Shown: positions 2-22,663 of the stretch, in pieces
Layout: each line of letters opens with the position of its first letter
Numbering within the stretch: position 1 is the first letter of the stretch
NCBI GenBank assembly: GCA_024710805.1
Contig: JANJUB010000029.1
Location: 1 to 35,355, forward strand
DNA: 35,355 bases
Reading direction: 5' to 3'
From: Fimbriimonadaceae bacterium
GTDB lineage: Bacteria; Armatimonadota; Fimbriimonadia; Fimbriimonadales; Fimbriimonadaceae
Notes under the pieces: generated by a model
Databases searched by the model: none
Seen by the model: the letters and a program-made list of their open reading frames with translations, nothing else
What the model was told of the DNA's origin: nothing
Made by a program: the position numbers and the translations under genes

Positions 2-3594
<3,593 letters not shown>

Positions 3595-3596
3595 GC

Positions 3597-5090
3597 CTAG
3601 TAAGCTTTGGCGAACACGACGCGCTGGGTGCTGGGCCGTCCGGTCAGCACGCACTTGCCCGGCTTGGCGTCATCCGGGTGGAGCGGCTTCATCGGAATCG
3701 CGCGGATCGTGGCTTTGGTCTTCTCCGCGATGATCGCCTCGGTTTCGTCGGTGCCATCCCAGTGGGCGACGACGAAACCGCCGCCGCCTTCCCCGGCAAA
3801 GCATGCCTCGAACTCTTCCCACGTGTCGACCCGAAACGTGTTTGCTTCGCGGAAGGCCAATGCCCGCGCGTAGAGATCATGCTGCATAGCATCGAGTTGC
3901 GCGTGGATGTAGTCGGCGAGCTGATCGAATGCGACCGTCACCTTCTCACCGACGTCACGGCGCGCGACGACACAGGTGCCGCCCTCGAGGTCGCGAGGAC
4001 CAATCTCGACGCGAATGCACGCGCCCTTGAGTTCCCAATCATTGAACTTGAATCCCGGCGACAGCTGATCGCGCTTGTCCACCTTCACCCGAACTCCATG
4101 CCCGCGCATCAAAGCTGCAAGTTCGTCGGATTTCGCGTAAGTTTGCTTCCGAATGTCCTCATCTCGACCCATCGGTAAGAAGACAACTTGGGTCGGCGCG
4201 AGCCTCGGCGGCACCACGAGACCCTTGTCATCGGAGTGCATCATGATCAGCGTGCCAATGAGCCGCGTCGAGACTCCCCAGGACGTCGCGAAGACGTGCT
4301 CCAACTTGCCCTCCTTGTTGGTGAAGGTCACATCGAAGGCCTTGGCGAAGTTCTGGCCGAGGTGGTGGCTCGTGCCCGCCTGGATCGCCCGCTTGTCCTG
4401 CACTAACGCTTCGATGGTGTAGGTGTGATCGGCTCCGGCAAAGGTCTCGTTCTTTGACTTCACGCCCTTCAACACCGGGACGGCCATCCATTCCTCGGCG
4501 AACCGGGCATAGCACTCATTGAGGATCGTCAGCGCCTCTTGCTCCGCATCCTCGAAGGTCGCATGAGCGGTGTGACCTTCTTGCCATAGGAACTCGGTCG
4601 TGCGCAAGAACAGCCGGGGACGAAGCTCCCAGCGCATGACGTTGGCCCACTGGTTGATGAGGATCGGCAGGTCGCGATACGACTGAATCCAGTTCTTATA
4701 GGTGTGCCAGATGATGGTCTCGCTCGAAGGGCGGATGACATAGGGTTCTTCGAGCTTCGCATCGGGATCAACACCGAGGCCATCCTTTGTTTGGGCGAGC
4801 CGATGATGGGTGACGATCGCGCTCTCTTTGGCAAACCCCTCCACGTGCTCGGCCTCTCGAGCGAAAAACGACATCGGAATGAGCAGCGGGAAGTAGGCGT
4901 TCACATGCCCGGTTGCCTTGAACATGTCGTCGAGGGCGCGCTGCATCAGTTCCCAAATGGCGTAGCCATTGGGGCGGATGACCATGCTTCCACGCACCGG
5001 CGAGTTCTCCGCCAACTCGGCCCTCTTGACCAAGTCGTTGTACCAATCGCTGAAGCTAACGTCTCGAGAAGTGATGCCTTGCTTGCTCAT
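3597..5090 (-). CDS. proS: Prolyl-tRNA synthetase, archaeal/Thermus-like type
   Basis: Charges tRNA-Pro with proline in the cytoplasm. The start chosen is ATG at 5090 ([10 protein letters not shown]), giving 497 residues, the usual length of the type without the editing insertion; a GTG at 5168 would add an unconvincing 26-residue leader. Class II signatures are RPSSET at 120-125, a motif 2 region [17 protein letters not shown] at 157-173, and a motif 3 region from GVSTRLIGT to [13 protein letters not shown] at 272-299. An anticodon-binding domain follows ([16 protein letters not shown]), then the C-terminal domain ending [18 protein letters not shown], typical of this type, whose terminal tyrosine enters the active site in known structures. 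It is the last gene of the long minus-strand run begun by metG. Confidence 0.96.
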
Positions 5091-5167
5091 GCGAGCTTCG
5101 ATTGTGGCAGATTGACAGCCGACACCCACGAGGCGTCGCAGTGGGTTCGTGCCGCGAGTGGAACGCA

Positions 5168-5641
5168 CTAGCGCGACCGCTGGTCGTAAACGACGATCCG
5201 GACGTTGGCATCCACCGCTAGAGACTCGAGTTCTGACCTCATCACTTCGAGTGCGCGAACCTGAGGGAACCCTCCGGATCCCGACCCCAGCACCGGAAAG
5301 GCGACGCTCTTGAATCCCCGTTCCTCAACAATCCTCATCGCCGACCGCACGCTCTCTCTGATCGAGTGCTCCGACGCCCGCCACGCCATATTGATCGCGG
5401 CGACGTGGATGACTGCTCTGAAGCGGAGTTTGCCAGCCCCCGTCAGCACTGCTCCTCCGAGCGGAATCTGGCCCTGTCGGGACAACTCGCGGAAGGGAGC
5501 GAGCCCCGCCCGGCGTTTGATCGCGCCGGAGACGCCCTGCGGCAGCAAGAGCCACCATGGGATCACATTTCGGTTCCAAGCATTGACGATCACCTCGACA
5601 TCTTGATCGAGCAAATCACCATGTACGATGGTCGCCTTCAT
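5168..5641 (-). CDS. Macro-domain protein (ADP-ribose binding/hydrolase family)
   Basis: A single macro domain of 157 residues. Visible family motifs are IVNAWNRN near the N-terminus (adenine side of the site), [12 protein letters not shown] (substrate loop), and [10 protein letters not shown] (phosphate loop). Relatives bind ADP-ribose or remove it from proteins, nucleic acids or O-acetyl-ADP-ribose; the substrate here cannot be told from sequence. It lies 6 bases after the YjbR-like gene and 77 bases before proS on the same strand, so probably one transcript. An HxTx 2'-phosphotransferase or other partner is not adjacent. Confidence 0.85.
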
Positions 5642-5647
5642 CTCGCG

Positions 5648-5977
5648 TCACCTAGCTGCGAACTCGTGGGCGGCGACGATGTGGTCCTCTATGACTGCCC
5701 AATCCAACCCGCGGTCCAGCCGGACTCCGATCCACCCGCTGGGCCCCACGTAAGGCGGGCGGAAGTAGACCTCCGGATCTTCGGCGAGCAGCATCTCTTG
5801 GATTCCCGGGCGGGCGGCGAGCCAAACCGCAACTCTGCCATCGCCGTGGTGATTGTCGAGAAACGAGCAAAACTGCCGCTTCTTCTCGATGAAGAAGCAG
5901 GGTGTACCGTGGCTGAGTTTCTCGTAAGCGCCGGGCAAAGCCAGACACATCTCTCGGACTCGGTCGAGGGCAGTCAC
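5648..5977 (-). CDS. MmcQ/YjbR family protein
   Basis: A 109-residue protein of the YjbR (DUF419) family, a double-wing DNA-binding-like fold of unproven function. Family features are the N-terminal VREMCLALPGAYEKLSHGTPCFFIEKKRQF, the central VAVWLAARPG and the YVGPSGWIGVRLDRGLDW segment close to the end. The start is a GTG at 5977 (MTALDRVREM), which fits where the family usually begins. It sits between the NYN and macro-domain genes on the minus strand with short gaps (34 and 6 bases), suggesting co-transcription. Confidence 0.82.
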   Translation of the reverse strand: MTALDRVREMCLALPGAYEKLSHGTPCFFIEKKRQFCSFLDNHHGDGRVAVWLAARPGIQEMLLAEDPEVYFRPPYVGPSGWIGVRLDRGLDWAVIEDHIVAAHEFAAR

Positions 5978-17498: not shown

Positions 17499-17528
17499 GG
17501 ACAATCCCGGTATCTTCATTTCACCCCT

Positions 17529-18728
17529 GTGATTCGCCGCATCACCCTCGAGAACTTCATGTCCCACGTCAACACGGTCATCGAACCGGCGGCGGGATTG
17601 ACGGTGATCGTTGGTCCGAACAACTGCGGGAAGTCGGCCATCGTCGCGGCCTTGCAGTGCCTCAGCTACGGTGCCTATGGCAAGCCGTTCGTTCGCCACG
17701 GGTGCCGATACGCCAAGGTCACCGTCGACACCGGTGAAGGGGACCGAATCGAATGGATGCGCGAGAACGACTCCGTGACTTACACCATCAACGGAGTGAA
17801 GACGCATCGTGGCGTCGTGCCTGACGACTTGCCGAAGCTGCTGAAGATCAACCGGGTCGTGGCCGACGACGACGAGTCGGAGTTCGACATCCACTTCGCC
17901 GAGCAGAAGCAACCGATCTTCCTCCTCGGCAAGGCCAAAGATGCCGCGCTCTTCTTCGCATCATCGTCCGATGCCGGATACCTGCTGCGCATGCAGCAGA
18001 ACTGGAAAGACCGGATTCGCGATCGCCGCAGAGAGGCTAACCGGCTGAGTGAGGGCTTGATCTCAGATCGCGTTCGTTACGAGGGATACGCGCCGCTTGC
18101 CGACATCGAGCCAGCGATGAAAGAGATCGAGGCTCACTATGCCGAGCTCGCCGAGATCGAGCAGAGTCGTGCGGCACTCCTGGGTTTCCTCAAGCGACAG
18201 AAAAACACGCTGCGATCGGTGGAACACCAACACGCCGCCGCCCAAGCCTTGCACGAACTGCCGAGTGTTCCCGCTCTGGCCGATGAAGAGAGTTGCCGTA
18301 AGGTGGTTTCTCGATGGCGATCGCTGCGCCGTTCGGTAATGCGGGAAGAGTTGCTCGGCAAATCCCTAGAGATTGCCGCACCTCCGACCCTCAGCGACAC
18401 TGCCGGACTCTCCCAACTCGTGCGTGACACCCATAGGAAGCGCCACTACGTCGCAAAAATCGGAGCCAAAGCCAGCGTCGTCCAGGCCCTGGAAGATCCT
18501 CCTGTTCAGATCGACACGAGCGGCCTCGCCCGTGCGATTCAGGCCGTGAAAAGTGCCAAGCGCGCGGTCGATCTTGCCACGCAGAAGCTGGATCAAGACC
18601 GAGCGGCACTCGACAAGTCGGCGGCAGATCTTCGCGAATACGTGTCTCGCCATCCCGAGTGCCCCACGTGCGGCGGGGCTATCGATCCCGAGCGGTTCCT
18701 GAATCGACAGGAGCACACGCATGCGTGA
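17529..18728 (+). CDS. Rad50/SbcC-like N-terminal ATPase half ending in a zinc hook
   Basis: A 399-residue chain corresponding to the first half of a Rad50/SbcC ATPase. The Walker A loop GPNNCGKS is at 29-36, after the typical N-terminus IRRITLENFMSHVNTVIEP. A Q-loop-like FAEQKQPIFLL follows (about residue 123). Residues ~155-375 are helical and charged, consistent with the rising arm of a coiled coil. C378-P-T-C381 followed by GGAIDP is the Rad50 zinc-hook motif. The protein stops 18 residues after the second hook cysteine, so the returning arm, signature motif and Walker B are missing here and appear in a separate gene (19924-20643). The stop overlaps the nuclease start by 8 bases. Start GTG at 17529 has no clear ribosome binding site. 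Confidence 0.9.
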   Translation: MIRRITLENFMSHVNTVIEPAAGLTVIVGPNNCGKSAIVAALQCLSYGAYGKPFVRHGCRYAKVTVDTGEGDRIEWMRENDSVTYTINGVKTHRGVVPDDLPKLLKINRVVADDDESEFDIHFAEQKQPIFLLGKAKDAALFFASSSDAGYLLRMQQNWKDRIRDRRREANRLSEGLISDRVRYEGYAPLADIEPAMKEIEAHYAELAEIEQSRAALLGFLKRQKNTLRSVEHQHAAAQALHELPSVPALADEESCRKVVSRWRSLRRSVMREELLGKSLEIAAPPTLSDTAGLSQLVRDTHRKRHYVAKIGAKASVVQALEDPPVQIDTSGLARAIQAVKSAKRAVDLATQKLDQDRAALDKSAADLREYVSRHPECPTCGGAIDPERFLNRQEHTHA

Positions 18729-19653
18729 GTTCCGTGGCCTGCTCTTCATCGGCGATCCCCACCTCGCCCATCGTGCGCCGGGATATCGCAAGGATGACTA
18801 CGGTCAGGCGATCTTGGAGAAGCTTCGGTGGTGCCTAGAATACGCCGCGCAGGAGAATCTCCAACCCGCACTCCTCGGAGACCTCTTTCACTGGGCCCGC
18901 GACAACGCGAACTGGTTGATCGCCGAACTCTGCGAGATGCTCCGCGGGCGCGACGTCATCGGCATTTACGGCAACCACGACGTCCACCAGAGCATGCTCA
19001 CCGACAACGACTCGCTGAGCGTGCCCGTAAAGGCCGGACTCCTCCGCCTCATAACCGAGCGCGATGTGTGGGAAGGAATCGTCGGCGGATACCCCGTTGT
19101 GGTTGGTGGCACGCCTTATGGCGCGTACCGCCCAAGCGACTATCCTCCCGGGTACGGCGGCAAGAAACTCGTCATCTGGATGATGCACCACGATGTCACA
19201 GTGCAGGGCTACCTCGGCAAGATGGACCCCGAGGAGCTGCCCGGCATCCATCTGGTCGTTAACGGCCACATCCACCGCCGGCTTGATCCCGTGGTTGTGC
19301 GCCGCACGACGTGGCTGACCCCGGGCAACATCGCTCGCACCAAGCGCTCGGAAGGGGTGAACACGCCGGCCGTTCTACGAATCGATGTTTTGGCCGAGGG
19401 CTTGTGGGATGCCCAGTACATCACCGTCCCCCACCGTCCTGCCGAGGAGGTCTTTTCCGAGGTGCCGGCCATCGATACCGAGCTGCCCTACGAGGGGTCG
19501 TCGGCTTTCGTGAGGGGCCTCAGCGCCATCCGCGGCGGCCGGATGGGGGGTGAAGGACTCCGAGCGTTCCTCGACCACAATCTCGATCAGTTCGAGCCCG
19601 AAGTTGCCGCCAAGATTCGCGAACTCGCCGATGAGGTGCTATCCGATGCCTGA
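18721..19653 (+). CDS. Mre11/SbcD-like metallophosphoesterase (putative nuclease)
   Basis: A 310-residue calcineurin-type phosphoesterase with the full motif set of Mre11/SbcD: GDPHLAH (D12, H14), GDLFHW (D54), GNHD (N85, H86), MMHHDV and GHIHRR. Mre11/SbcD enzymes act on DNA ends together with the Rad50/SbcC ATPase, and this gene lies between the two ATPase halves, overlapping both flanking genes by 8 bases. The C-terminal ~90 residues (AEEVFSEVPAIDTELPYEG to the end) may hold the capping and ATPase-binding parts but are shorter than in SbcD. Confidence 0.92.
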   Translation: MREFRGLLFIGDPHLAHRAPGYRKDDYGQAILEKLRWCLEYAAQENLQPALLGDLFHWARDNANWLIAELCEMLRGRDVIGIYGNHDVHQSMLTDNDSLSVPVKAGLLRLITERDVWEGIVGGYPVVVGGTPYGAYRPSDYPPGYGGKKLVIWMMHHDVTVQGYLGKMDPEELPGIHLVVNGHIHRRLDPVVVRRTTWLTPGNIARTKRSEGVNTPAVLRIDVLAEGLWDAQYITVPHRPAEEVFSEVPAIDTELPYEGSSAFVRGLSAIRGGRMGGEGLRAFLDHNLDQFEPEVAAKIRELADEVLSDA

Positions 19654-19927
19654 TATCCAAGAACTCGACGTCCTTCGATCCCGATATGACAAGCTCGCGG
19701 CTCAGCGGAGCGCCGCCGAGGCGCTGCTCGAAAACGCGAAAAAGGAACTCGCGAAGCTCGAGGCTGAAGCCAAAGAGACCTACGGAACGAGCGATCTCGC
19801 CGAGCTGGAAGCCCAACTGGCGAAGATGGAGCAAGAGAACCTCGAGAAGCGACGCGCTTATCAGCAGCAACTGGACACGATCGAGGAGAAGCTGAAAGAG
19901 GTCGAGGAGAAGTTTCCCAAGGAATGA
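19646..19927 (+). CDS. Small coiled-coil protein (93 aa) of the split Rad50 operon
   Basis: ATG at 19646 (MPDIQELDVLRSRYDK) overlaps the nuclease stop by 8 bases, and the stop overlaps the next start as ATGA. Nearly every residue is helix-forming, with heptad-like hydrophobics and many Glu/Lys/Ala (AEALLENAKKELAKLEAEAK, then LEAQLAKMEQENLEKRRAYQ), so a coiled coil is a safe reading. No catalytic motif and no cysteine. Its position just before the C-terminal ATPase half suggests it supplies part of the missing returning arm of the Rad50 coiled coil; that is inference. A longer in-frame version starting at 19550 would run antiparallel to coding logic inside the nuclease gene and is rejected. 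Confidence 0.82.
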   Translation: MPDIQELDVLRSRYDKLAAQRSAAEALLENAKKELAKLEAEAKETYGTSDLAELEAQLAKMEQENLEKRRAYQQQLDTIEEKLKEVEEKFPKE

Positions 19928-20643
19928 TCTTCGAAGAACTTACGCGTCCGGAATCGCCAGTTCGCCTCCGCGACCGGTTTATGAGGCTCCGTGCGCAACG
20001 CGACGAACTCAAGCACGTCATCGAGCGGCACGAAAAGCGATTGGCGGAGCTTCAGCACGAAGTCGAGCTCGAAGCCAAGGTCGACCAGGCGATGGCGACG
20101 CTGACCGATCAGCTGTTCAGCGACGTCGCCGAGTTGCTCCAAGACCGGCTCACGACCGCGCTCGAGGAAGTGCTCGATCAGCCCCTGCGCTTCCGAGCCG
20201 AGACCAAGCTGGCTCGTGGCGTGGCCACGGTCCGGTTCTGGATCGAGCGCGACGGCAACGAGGAGGACATCCTCAAGGGTCAGGGGGGCTCCGTGACCAA
20301 CGTGCTCAGCGTGTGCCTGCGGATGTTCGCCCTTCGCCGCTGCGACGAGAAACTCCACCGGCCCTTCCTCGTGCTCGATGAGCCCGACGCGTGGCTCCGG
20401 CCCGACGTGGTGCCTCGCTTGGTGAAGATCATCGCGGAAGCGGGTCGAGAGTTAGGCTTCCAAACTATACTGATCAGCCACCACGACATCGATCTCTTCT
20501 CGCAGTACGCGGATCGGGTTTACCGGCTGGATCCCCAGGGCGACGGTTCCGTCCGGGCACGGATCGTGGGCGGTTCGGTTACCGAAGATGAGGTTGAGGC
20601 GGGACCGCCGAGGATGCCCACCAACCTGTTCGACGACCTTTAG
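19924..20643 (+). CDS. Rad50/SbcC-like C-terminal ATPase half
   Basis: A 239-residue chain holding the second half of an SMC/Rad50-type ATPase. Residues about 10-65 are a charged helix (LKHVIERHEKRLAELQHEVE). The ABC signature region is QGGSVTNVLSVCLRMFAL (from Q120), Walker B is FLVLDEPDAW with D152 and E153, and the switch histidine follows ILIS at H186/H187. It has no Walker A and no zinc hook, so it can only complete an ATP site with the product of 17529-18728. It overlaps the coiled-coil gene (ATGA), and its stop overlaps the convergent glycosidase stop. Confidence 0.9.
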   Translation: MIFEELTRPESPVRLRDRFMRLRAQRDELKHVIERHEKRLAELQHEVELEAKVDQAMATLTDQLFSDVAELLQDRLTTALEEVLDQPLRFRAETKLARGVATVRFWIERDGNEEDILKGQGGSVTNVLSVCLRMFALRRCDEKLHRPFLVLDEPDAWLRPDVVPRLVKIIAEAGRELGFQTILISHHDIDLFSQYADRVYRLDPQGDGSVRARIVGGSVTEDEVEAGPPRMPTNLFDDL

Positions 20644-21368
20644 TTGCCGGCGACGAGATTGCGCCGCGTAATCACCAGCAAGTTCGAGAGCTTGCGATTT
20701 GGCGAGACCAGCATCTTTCCGCCGTAATACAGACACGTGCTGCCTCCGCCATCGAGGCTCAGTCCGGCACGTACGCCCTGCTTCACCATCGCATGACCCA
20801 ACTGGCTTAGCGTCACCTTTGACTGCGTGACCAAGAAGACGACCTTTCCTTGCTTGGTGGTTCCGACACCGACCCGGGCGGCTCGGCCCCAGATCGCGGG
20901 GTCCTTAAACGCTTGGCCCCGCGGGTTCGGTACGACCTTGCCTCCGTTCACCACGCGTACCGCTCCGCGCAACCCGAACTGGAAGCTCGACCAATCGGTT
21001 GGCCGGTGGAACTTCTCGTCGAAGATCGAAAGCTCTCCGGTCCACGCCACGCCGAGCCCAGAACCACGGGCTCCATGCGCGACGAGTTTGCCATTCACCA
21101 AGACGTCGGCTACGGGAATCTGGTGCTTAGGCGAAAAGAACGTGCCCGTCACCGCGATCAGCGGCTGCTCCTTGCCAATCAGCTTCCACACGTTCGTGAG
21201 CTGGTTGCTGTGAACGGTCTTGGCCGACAACGATGGACTGCTCAGGTTGCAGACCACCACATGGTAGACCGCGTTCCCGTACCTCACCATTTTGTGGGCC
21301 GCATGAGATGCGGGGCTCGGTGCGGATGGCGTCGCCAAGGCGACGATGGCAGCTGCGGTGGCAAACAT
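20640..21368 (-). CDS. NAGPA-like phosphodiester glycosidase family protein (exported)
   Basis: A 242-residue protein with an N-terminal signal-like segment (MFATAAAIVALATPSAPSPA). The remainder matches the phosphodiester glycosidase (NAGPA, DUF2233) domain: VTGTFFSPKHQIPVADVLVNGK near residue 75, then ARVGVGTTKQGKVVFLVTQ, and the diagnostic LSLDGGGSTCLYYGGKML near the end. The human member uncovers mannose-6-phosphate; the bacterial members' substrates are mostly unknown, with polysaccharide phosphodiesters suspected. A good AGGAGG lies just upstream of the ATG at 21368. Confidence 0.85.
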   Translation of the reverse strand: MFATAAAIVALATPSAPSPASHAAHKMVRYGNAVYHVVVCNLSSPSLSAKTVHSNQLTNVWKLIGKEQPLIAVTGTFFSPKHQIPVADVLVNGKLVAHGARGSGLGVAWTGELSIFDEKFHRPTDWSSFQFGLRGAVRVVNGGKVVPNPRGQAFKDPAIWGRAARVGVGTTKQGKVVFLVTQSKVTLSQLGHAMVKQGVRAGLSLDGGGSTCLYYGGKMLVSPNRKLSNLLVITRRNLVAGN

Positions 21369-22315: not shown

Positions 22316-22663
22316 ATGTTCGCCCTTAACTTTTACACCGACTTGTATGGCGATGTCCTGAAGAACCATCGCAAAACCGTGACCATTCGGTTGGGCGACA
22401 AGTCCGACAAATACCGCGACGGCATGCTCACGTGGGTCACGGTCGGGCCTCGATTCGGCCGTCGACAAAAGCTGTATACCGCAATCCTCGACCGTGTCGA
22501 GGTCAAGACGATCAGCGAACTCTCCCCGCGCGACATCGAGCGAGAGAACCCCGAGTTCCGCTCGCAAGACGACGTCATCGAAATGCTCTCCCGCATTTAC
22601 GGCGAGTTCATCACGCCGGAGCATCGGGTCACGGTGATCTACTTCTCGCGCGTCGACGAGTAG
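22316..22663 (+). CDS. ASCH-like domain protein (putative RNA-binding)
   Basis: A 115-residue protein. The N-terminus with HRKTVTIRLGDKSDKYRDG, the central strands MLTWVTVGPRFGRRQKLYTAILDRVEV, the KTISELSPRDIERENPEFRS helix and the final HRVTVIYFSRV match the plan of ASCH domains, a PUA-related beta-barrel proposed to bind RNA. Function is not established for this type. The downstream methyltransferase begins five bases after the stop, so they are probably co-transcribed. Confidence 0.72.
   Translation: MFALNFYTDLYGDVLKNHRKTVTIRLGDKSDKYRDGMLTWVTVGPRFGRRQKLYTAILDRVEVKTISELSPRDIERENPEFRSQDDVIEMLSRIYGEFITPEHRVTVIYFSRVDE

Follow-up and report, generated by a model that had tools for sequence, protein, structure and literature searches.

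The operon studied here, from a Fimbriimonadaceae bacterium (GenBank assembly GCA_024710805.1), very probably encodes a DNA-end processing complex of the Mre11-Rad50 (SbcCD) type in which Rad50 would be built of three chains; we infer its assembly and activity from the sequences and predicted structures. Canonical Rad50/SbcC consists of a single chain with a coil that runs out from the ATPase head, turns at a zinc hook, and returns. In the window, that is, the whole analysed stretch of 35,355 nucleotides (contig JANJUB010000029.1, forward strand), the two Rad50 lobes were found on separate genes with a nuclease gene and a coiled-coil gene between them, so that no single continuous Rad50/SbcC polypeptide is encoded.

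Composition of the operon

The operon consists of four intact open reading frames (ORFs) at positions 17529-20643, which overlap by 8, 8, and 4 bases according to the rechecked coordinates. The genes are as follows:

17529..18728, + strand: Rad50 N-chain, 399 aa, GTG start; N-terminal ABC-ATPase lobe, arm, and predicted C-terminal zinc hook
18721..19653, + strand: Mre11/SbcD-type metallophosphoesterase, 310 aa; PF00149 at E 3e-7 (above the cut-off) and profile matches
19646..19927, + strand: small coiled-coil chain, 93 aa; 23-row alignment, dN/dS 0.028, and profile match to the phage coil
19924..20643, + strand: Rad50 C-chain, 239 aa; motifs invariant in a 27-row alignment, and predicted fold

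By our own reading of the sequence, the operon is flanked by the bacterial housekeeping genes nrnA, truB, and prmC, and its GC content (0.618) equals that of its surroundings (0.616 and 0.619). A prophage remnant in the window was rejected for these reasons. Two further genes were observed nearby. A phosphodiester glycosidase gene (NAGPA, E 4e-22) lies on the opposite strand at 20640-21368 and overlaps the end of the C-chain gene by four bases, and a gene for a small ASCH-domain protein (PF04266, E 1e-4) lies downstream of the operon at 22316-22663.

The N-chain carries a Walker A motif, GPNNCGKS, at residues 29-36 and the zinc-hook motif CPTCGG with cysteines 378 and 381, Walker A and the hook cysteines being invariant in the alignments, and the chain stops 22 residues after CPTCGG. 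It matched PF13476 (E 9e-13), and its family profile, compared with solved structures, matched the Rad50 N-lobe (3qkr, E 8e-10) and, separately, the Rad50 zinc-hook fragments 6zff (E 3.4e-6) and 1l8d (E 4e-4). The AlphaFold2 model had a pLDDT of 77.5 and a low pTM, and its best fold match was Rad50. Motifs and model together point to a Rad50-like N-terminal ABC lobe, and the sequence predicts a zinc hook on the same chain. When the position of the cut was counted in 64 N-chains, including both copies of the locus in the sister genome G001, CxxC was located 12-46 residues from the C-terminus in 62, which indicates that Rad50 is cut just past the turn of the hook. The two exceptions are the sister loci L083 (N-chain at 378-1886) and L096 (N-chain at 3419-5686), which lack the hook CxxC and have a different helical tail instead, which suggests that the hook was lost or replaced once.

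The arm, which connects the lobe with the hook, consists of helices with PP turns between them, and the PP-PP spacing was 38-40 residues in 113 of 177 cases. The arm ranged from 186 to 505 residues across the N-chains. In the window (17973-18650) and in the N-chains of loci L055-L132, tandem PP-marked units of ~39 residues were observed, the number of which depends on the species. From this repeat pattern, the arm could be a rod of modular build that differs from the coil of ordinary Rad50.

The nuclease profile matched Mre11 (4hd0 and 1ii7; Mre11 E 4e-7) and SbcD (2q8u), and residues D12, H14, D54, N85, H86, H156, H183, and H185 were invariant in a 21-row alignment. These matches indicate a calcineurin-like phosphoesterase of the Mre11/SbcD kind with conserved metal-ligand residues.

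In the C-chain, the motifs KGQGGSVTNVLSV, FLVLDEPD, and ISHHD were read. The chain comprises a coil helix (residues 12-84), the signature GQGGSV (119-124), Walker B FLVLDE (148-153), and the H-loop SHH (185-187). Its profile gave weak SMC/ABC matches only against solved structures, and the AlphaFold2 model (pLDDT 84.5) showed a 73-residue helix followed by an ATPase lobe, for which the best fold match was the C-lobe of P. furiosus Rad50, with SMC heads near-equal. The invariant motifs and the modelled fold are consistent with a C-terminal ABC lobe of the Rad50/SbcC kind. Searches of the operon with PF13558 gave no match, and no operon chain reached the cut-off of a curated NCBIfam model, the Rad50 model scoring 52.5 bits against a cut-off of 700.

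The small coil is composed of two helical halves that flank a conserved YGT(D/S)D break in its alignment. Its length was 93-105 residues among the loci and did not correlate with arm length. The independence of the two lengths argues against the simple view that the small coil makes up the whole returning strand. It is proposed here to be the middle piece of the Rad50 arm.

These results agree with the initial annotation in the four genes, their coordinates, and their overlaps. Walker A and the zinc hook were confirmed on the 399-residue chain by motifs and profiles, the signature and Walker B on the 239-residue chain by their invariance among relatives, and the Mre11-like nuclease between the ATPase chains by its matches to Mre11 and SbcD. 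The proposed division was retained in part: the ATPase halves are indeed separate, but two Rad50 chains had to be replaced by three, namely, N-lobe with arm and hook, small coil, and coil with C-lobe.

Conservation and spread among cells

All four genes are also present and intact in the sister species G001, at 86-97% identity to those of the window. The dN/dS values between the two were 0.13 for the N-chain, 0.06 for the nuclease, 0.028 for the small coil, and 0.065 for the C-chain, which indicates that purifying selection acts on each of the four genes and thus that the operon is not decaying. On comparing the window with 12.9 kb of G001, homology was confined to the operon (window 17505-20648); the surroundings consequently differ in the two species of one genus. 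The sister genome (locus L054, JADZEW01) is labelled Methanoregulaceae archaeon, a label that looks wrong, since this genome is the sister of that of the window, in which the genes for TruB and PrmC are of bacterial type.

Genome contigs were scanned once with a C-chain alignment, which gave 103 relatives, and 79 of these loci were read. The order N-chain, nuclease, coil, C-chain on one strand was found in 60 of them, whereas seven were cut by contig ends and 12 had the C-chain only. As the whole layout recurs in dozens of loci, chance is excluded. According to database labels, the holders are mainly Planctomycetota (Pirellulaceae and Planctomycetaceae) and Thermodesulfobacteriota, and other phyla contribute single cases. 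Cultured holders include Thalassoglobus neptunius and Desulfacinum hydrothermale. In a sample of Planctomycetota, a C-chain match was obtained in 16 of 244 genomes (strong in 15), and the distribution of the split set is patchy.

In a nuclease tree built by a quick method, the 67 cellular rows formed one group, separated from the phage copies by a long branch (support 92, not starred). The same quick method gave six changes for Planctomycetota and three for Thermodesulfobacteriota. As this is far fewer than with shuffled labels, the tree suggests that the four-gene set was inherited mostly vertically, with some transfer. No additional conserved neighbours of the four genes were found, the other recurrent clusters being antisense ORFs or limited to a few loci.

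For nine genomes with the C-chain only, the N-chain gene was searched elsewhere in the genome, and it was present in six. Where the contig was readable, this unlinked N-chain gene was followed by the nuclease gene, and in three cases by the small-coil gene as well. The N-chain was not found in the remaining three of the nine, all of which are metagenome-assembled genomes that may be incomplete.

The initial annotation had regarded the division as an old, functional design and had pointed to related genomes for the same gene order. Both points were supported, by the wide conservation and by dN/dS values of 0.03-0.13. Neither of the two signs named there against such a design appeared: no full-length SbcC with frameshifts was found in relatives, the sister having four intact genes and no canonical SbcC, and the layout, instead of being absent elsewhere, is widely conserved across phyla and phages.

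Relatives in phages

The four genes were also detected in phages. Microcystis phage Mvi-JY20 has them in the window order with very divergent sequences, and in a 485-kb phage the window order is kept but interrupted. In the window's own family, genome G147 contains a four-gene set in window order whose sequences are likewise very divergent (locus L046, 5348-8457); this set was placed on a long branch close to the phage copies, and its neighbours may be phage genes.

In relatives of Bacillus phage vB_BboS-125, the order was N-chain, small coil, C-chain, nuclease in 27 of 27 viral contigs, and CxxC was located 9-20 residues from the C-terminus of the N-chains. Profile-profile comparison of the cellular and phage families gave E 2.7e-36 for the N-chain (through the hook), 2.2e-23 for the nuclease, and 3e-13 for the C-chain. 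The small coil also matched (E 7e-6, 84% probability), which is weaker evidence because it is a coiled coil. Thus, these phage sets share with the window the same four proteins and an N-chain that terminates at the hook, while differing in gene order and being distant in sequence. That these four proteins recur together in another order is the strongest sign of one machine.

In vB_BboS-125 itself, an AP2-domain gene (gp33; locus L050, 5584-6156) lies between the N-chain and small-coil genes and is possibly a homing insertion; gp32, gp34, and gp35, which belong to the split set of this phage together with a nuclease, carry only the annotations exonuclease, hypothetical protein, and ATPase. No useful matches came from viral-contig scans that used as queries the C-chain of the window, the alignment of this chain, or the C-chains of G147 and the Microcystis phage. 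Tunturi_5 gp23 was a candidate N-chain at first and was then dropped, and alignment A1 was set aside as too diverse.

Comparison with SbcC and other known systems

Whether the split set replaces ordinary SbcC was evaluated with PF13558. No canonical SbcC was found by this search in the window genome or in the sister G001, while it was found in 29 of 61 relatives, a few of the matches being weak. When a strong match and a frame of >1000 aa were required, ordinary SbcC was present alongside the split set in 11 of 28 holders outside the window's own family. The split set is therefore not simply a substitute for SbcC, and a different job is possible for it; simple replacement is unsupported in general, even though neither the window genome nor G001 has a canonical SbcC by this search.

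The operon resembles SbcCD/Mre11-Rad50 in having an N-lobe, a C-lobe, a zinc hook, and an Mre11-type nuclease in one operon, with the same motifs and predicted folds. It differs in that Rad50 appears as three chains cut just past the hook, in the arm of ~39-residue PP-separated units of variable number, and in the signature GQGGSV, with curated Rad50/SbcC models below cut-off or without a match. The lobes of P. furiosus Rad50 were reportedly crystallised as two separate chains (1f2t, 1f2u). The likeness is that separate N- and C-lobe polypeptides pair as one ATPase head; that case is an engineered construct, whereas here the genes are divided naturally. Mre11/Rad50 fusion proteins are described for Mimivirus R555 and its relatives (PMC3175470), which also have an altered organisation of these genes, but by fusion instead of fission. 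In the relevant part of a jumbo-phage review, SbcC/SbcD are treated as ordinary near-universal genes (PMC7824862). No description of a split Rad50 was found in the open-access literature searched; the initial annotation likewise named no described family with such a layout.

Proposed complex and alternative explanations

In the proposed complex, the lobe with Walker A and the rising arm would come from the N-chain, and so would the zinc hook, placed at the extreme C-terminus of that chain. The C-chain would contribute the signature, Walker B, and the H-loop, together with the lowest part of the returning coil. The small coil would most likely pack along the arm as a detached segment of the returning strand. 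One ABC head is expected to form when an N-lobe and a C-lobe pair in trans, two such heads would close upon ATP, and two hooks would be joined via zinc. At the base, a dimer of the Mre11-type nuclease would cut DNA ends, presumably in the service of repair.

This reading is supported by the domain identities, the co-conservation, the fixed cut point, the recurrence in phages, and the purifying selection. It is further supported by the genomes in which an unlinked C-gene is accompanied by an N-chain gene, the lack of any other conserved neighbour, and the 1f2t/1f2u precedent. Counted against it were the near-equal similarity of the C-chain fold to Rad50 and SMC heads, the missing hook cysteines of L083 and L096, the small coil that does not scale with the arm, and the coexistence with SbcC.

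Among the alternatives, it was considered unlikely that the operon encodes, instead of a repair complex, a distinct system of defence against phages or plasmids in which Rad50/SMC-like parts are used with a nuclease. Such a system would suit the patchy distribution, the coexistence with SbcC, the fact that two congeneric species have the operon in different surroundings, and the generic resemblance that the ATPase chains show to defence ATPases; PADLOC reported LmuB, GajA, and, for the C-chain, mad3 (E 1.6e-11). However, this similarity was generic only, the nuclease matched no PADLOC defence model, and the whole set was assigned to no known system. Moreover, conserved neighbours are absent and phages themselves carry four-part relatives, which DNA-end processing fits better.

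It is highly improbable that the N-lobe and C-lobe proteins are separate machines that share just an operon and do not complete one another. The location of the C-gene elsewhere in the genome in some lineages would favour such independence, but each chain is without half of the ABC active site, and an ABC head requires both lobes, a single lobe being unusable as an ATPase. In addition, most of the tested genomes with an unlinked C-gene have the N-chain gene, and phages retain all four genes.

That a single-chain sbcC was caught while decaying, or was divided by a sequencing error, might be supposed from the canonical single chain and from the draft genome of 207 contigs. This reading was rejected as having a negligible probability, because the nuclease and coil genes sit between the halves, every piece is under purifying selection, and the layout is conserved across phyla: the sister species has it, as do dozens of genomes and phages, among them named strains (L078, L108, L113).

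With less assurance than the three-chain complex itself, we favour the view that the operon belongs to an ancient, undescribed branch of Mre11-Rad50. Its three-chain Rad50 would be divided at the hook and have an arm of ~39-residue modules, a lobe joint that is not covalently closed, and a C-lobe that is possibly a detachable gate. This branch would act as a separate machine, which in bacteria and phages either accompanies SbcCD or takes its place. Because curated models miss the pieces, genomes and phages with the split set can look SbcC-less, and the set fills a likely annotation gap in both. A natural and widely conserved Rad50 that is cut just past the turn would demonstrate that no covalent link is needed between the hook and the returning strand. 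The split Rad50 would thus be a ready-made tool for asking whether the rod must be closed, what role arm length has, and whether the lobes can part.
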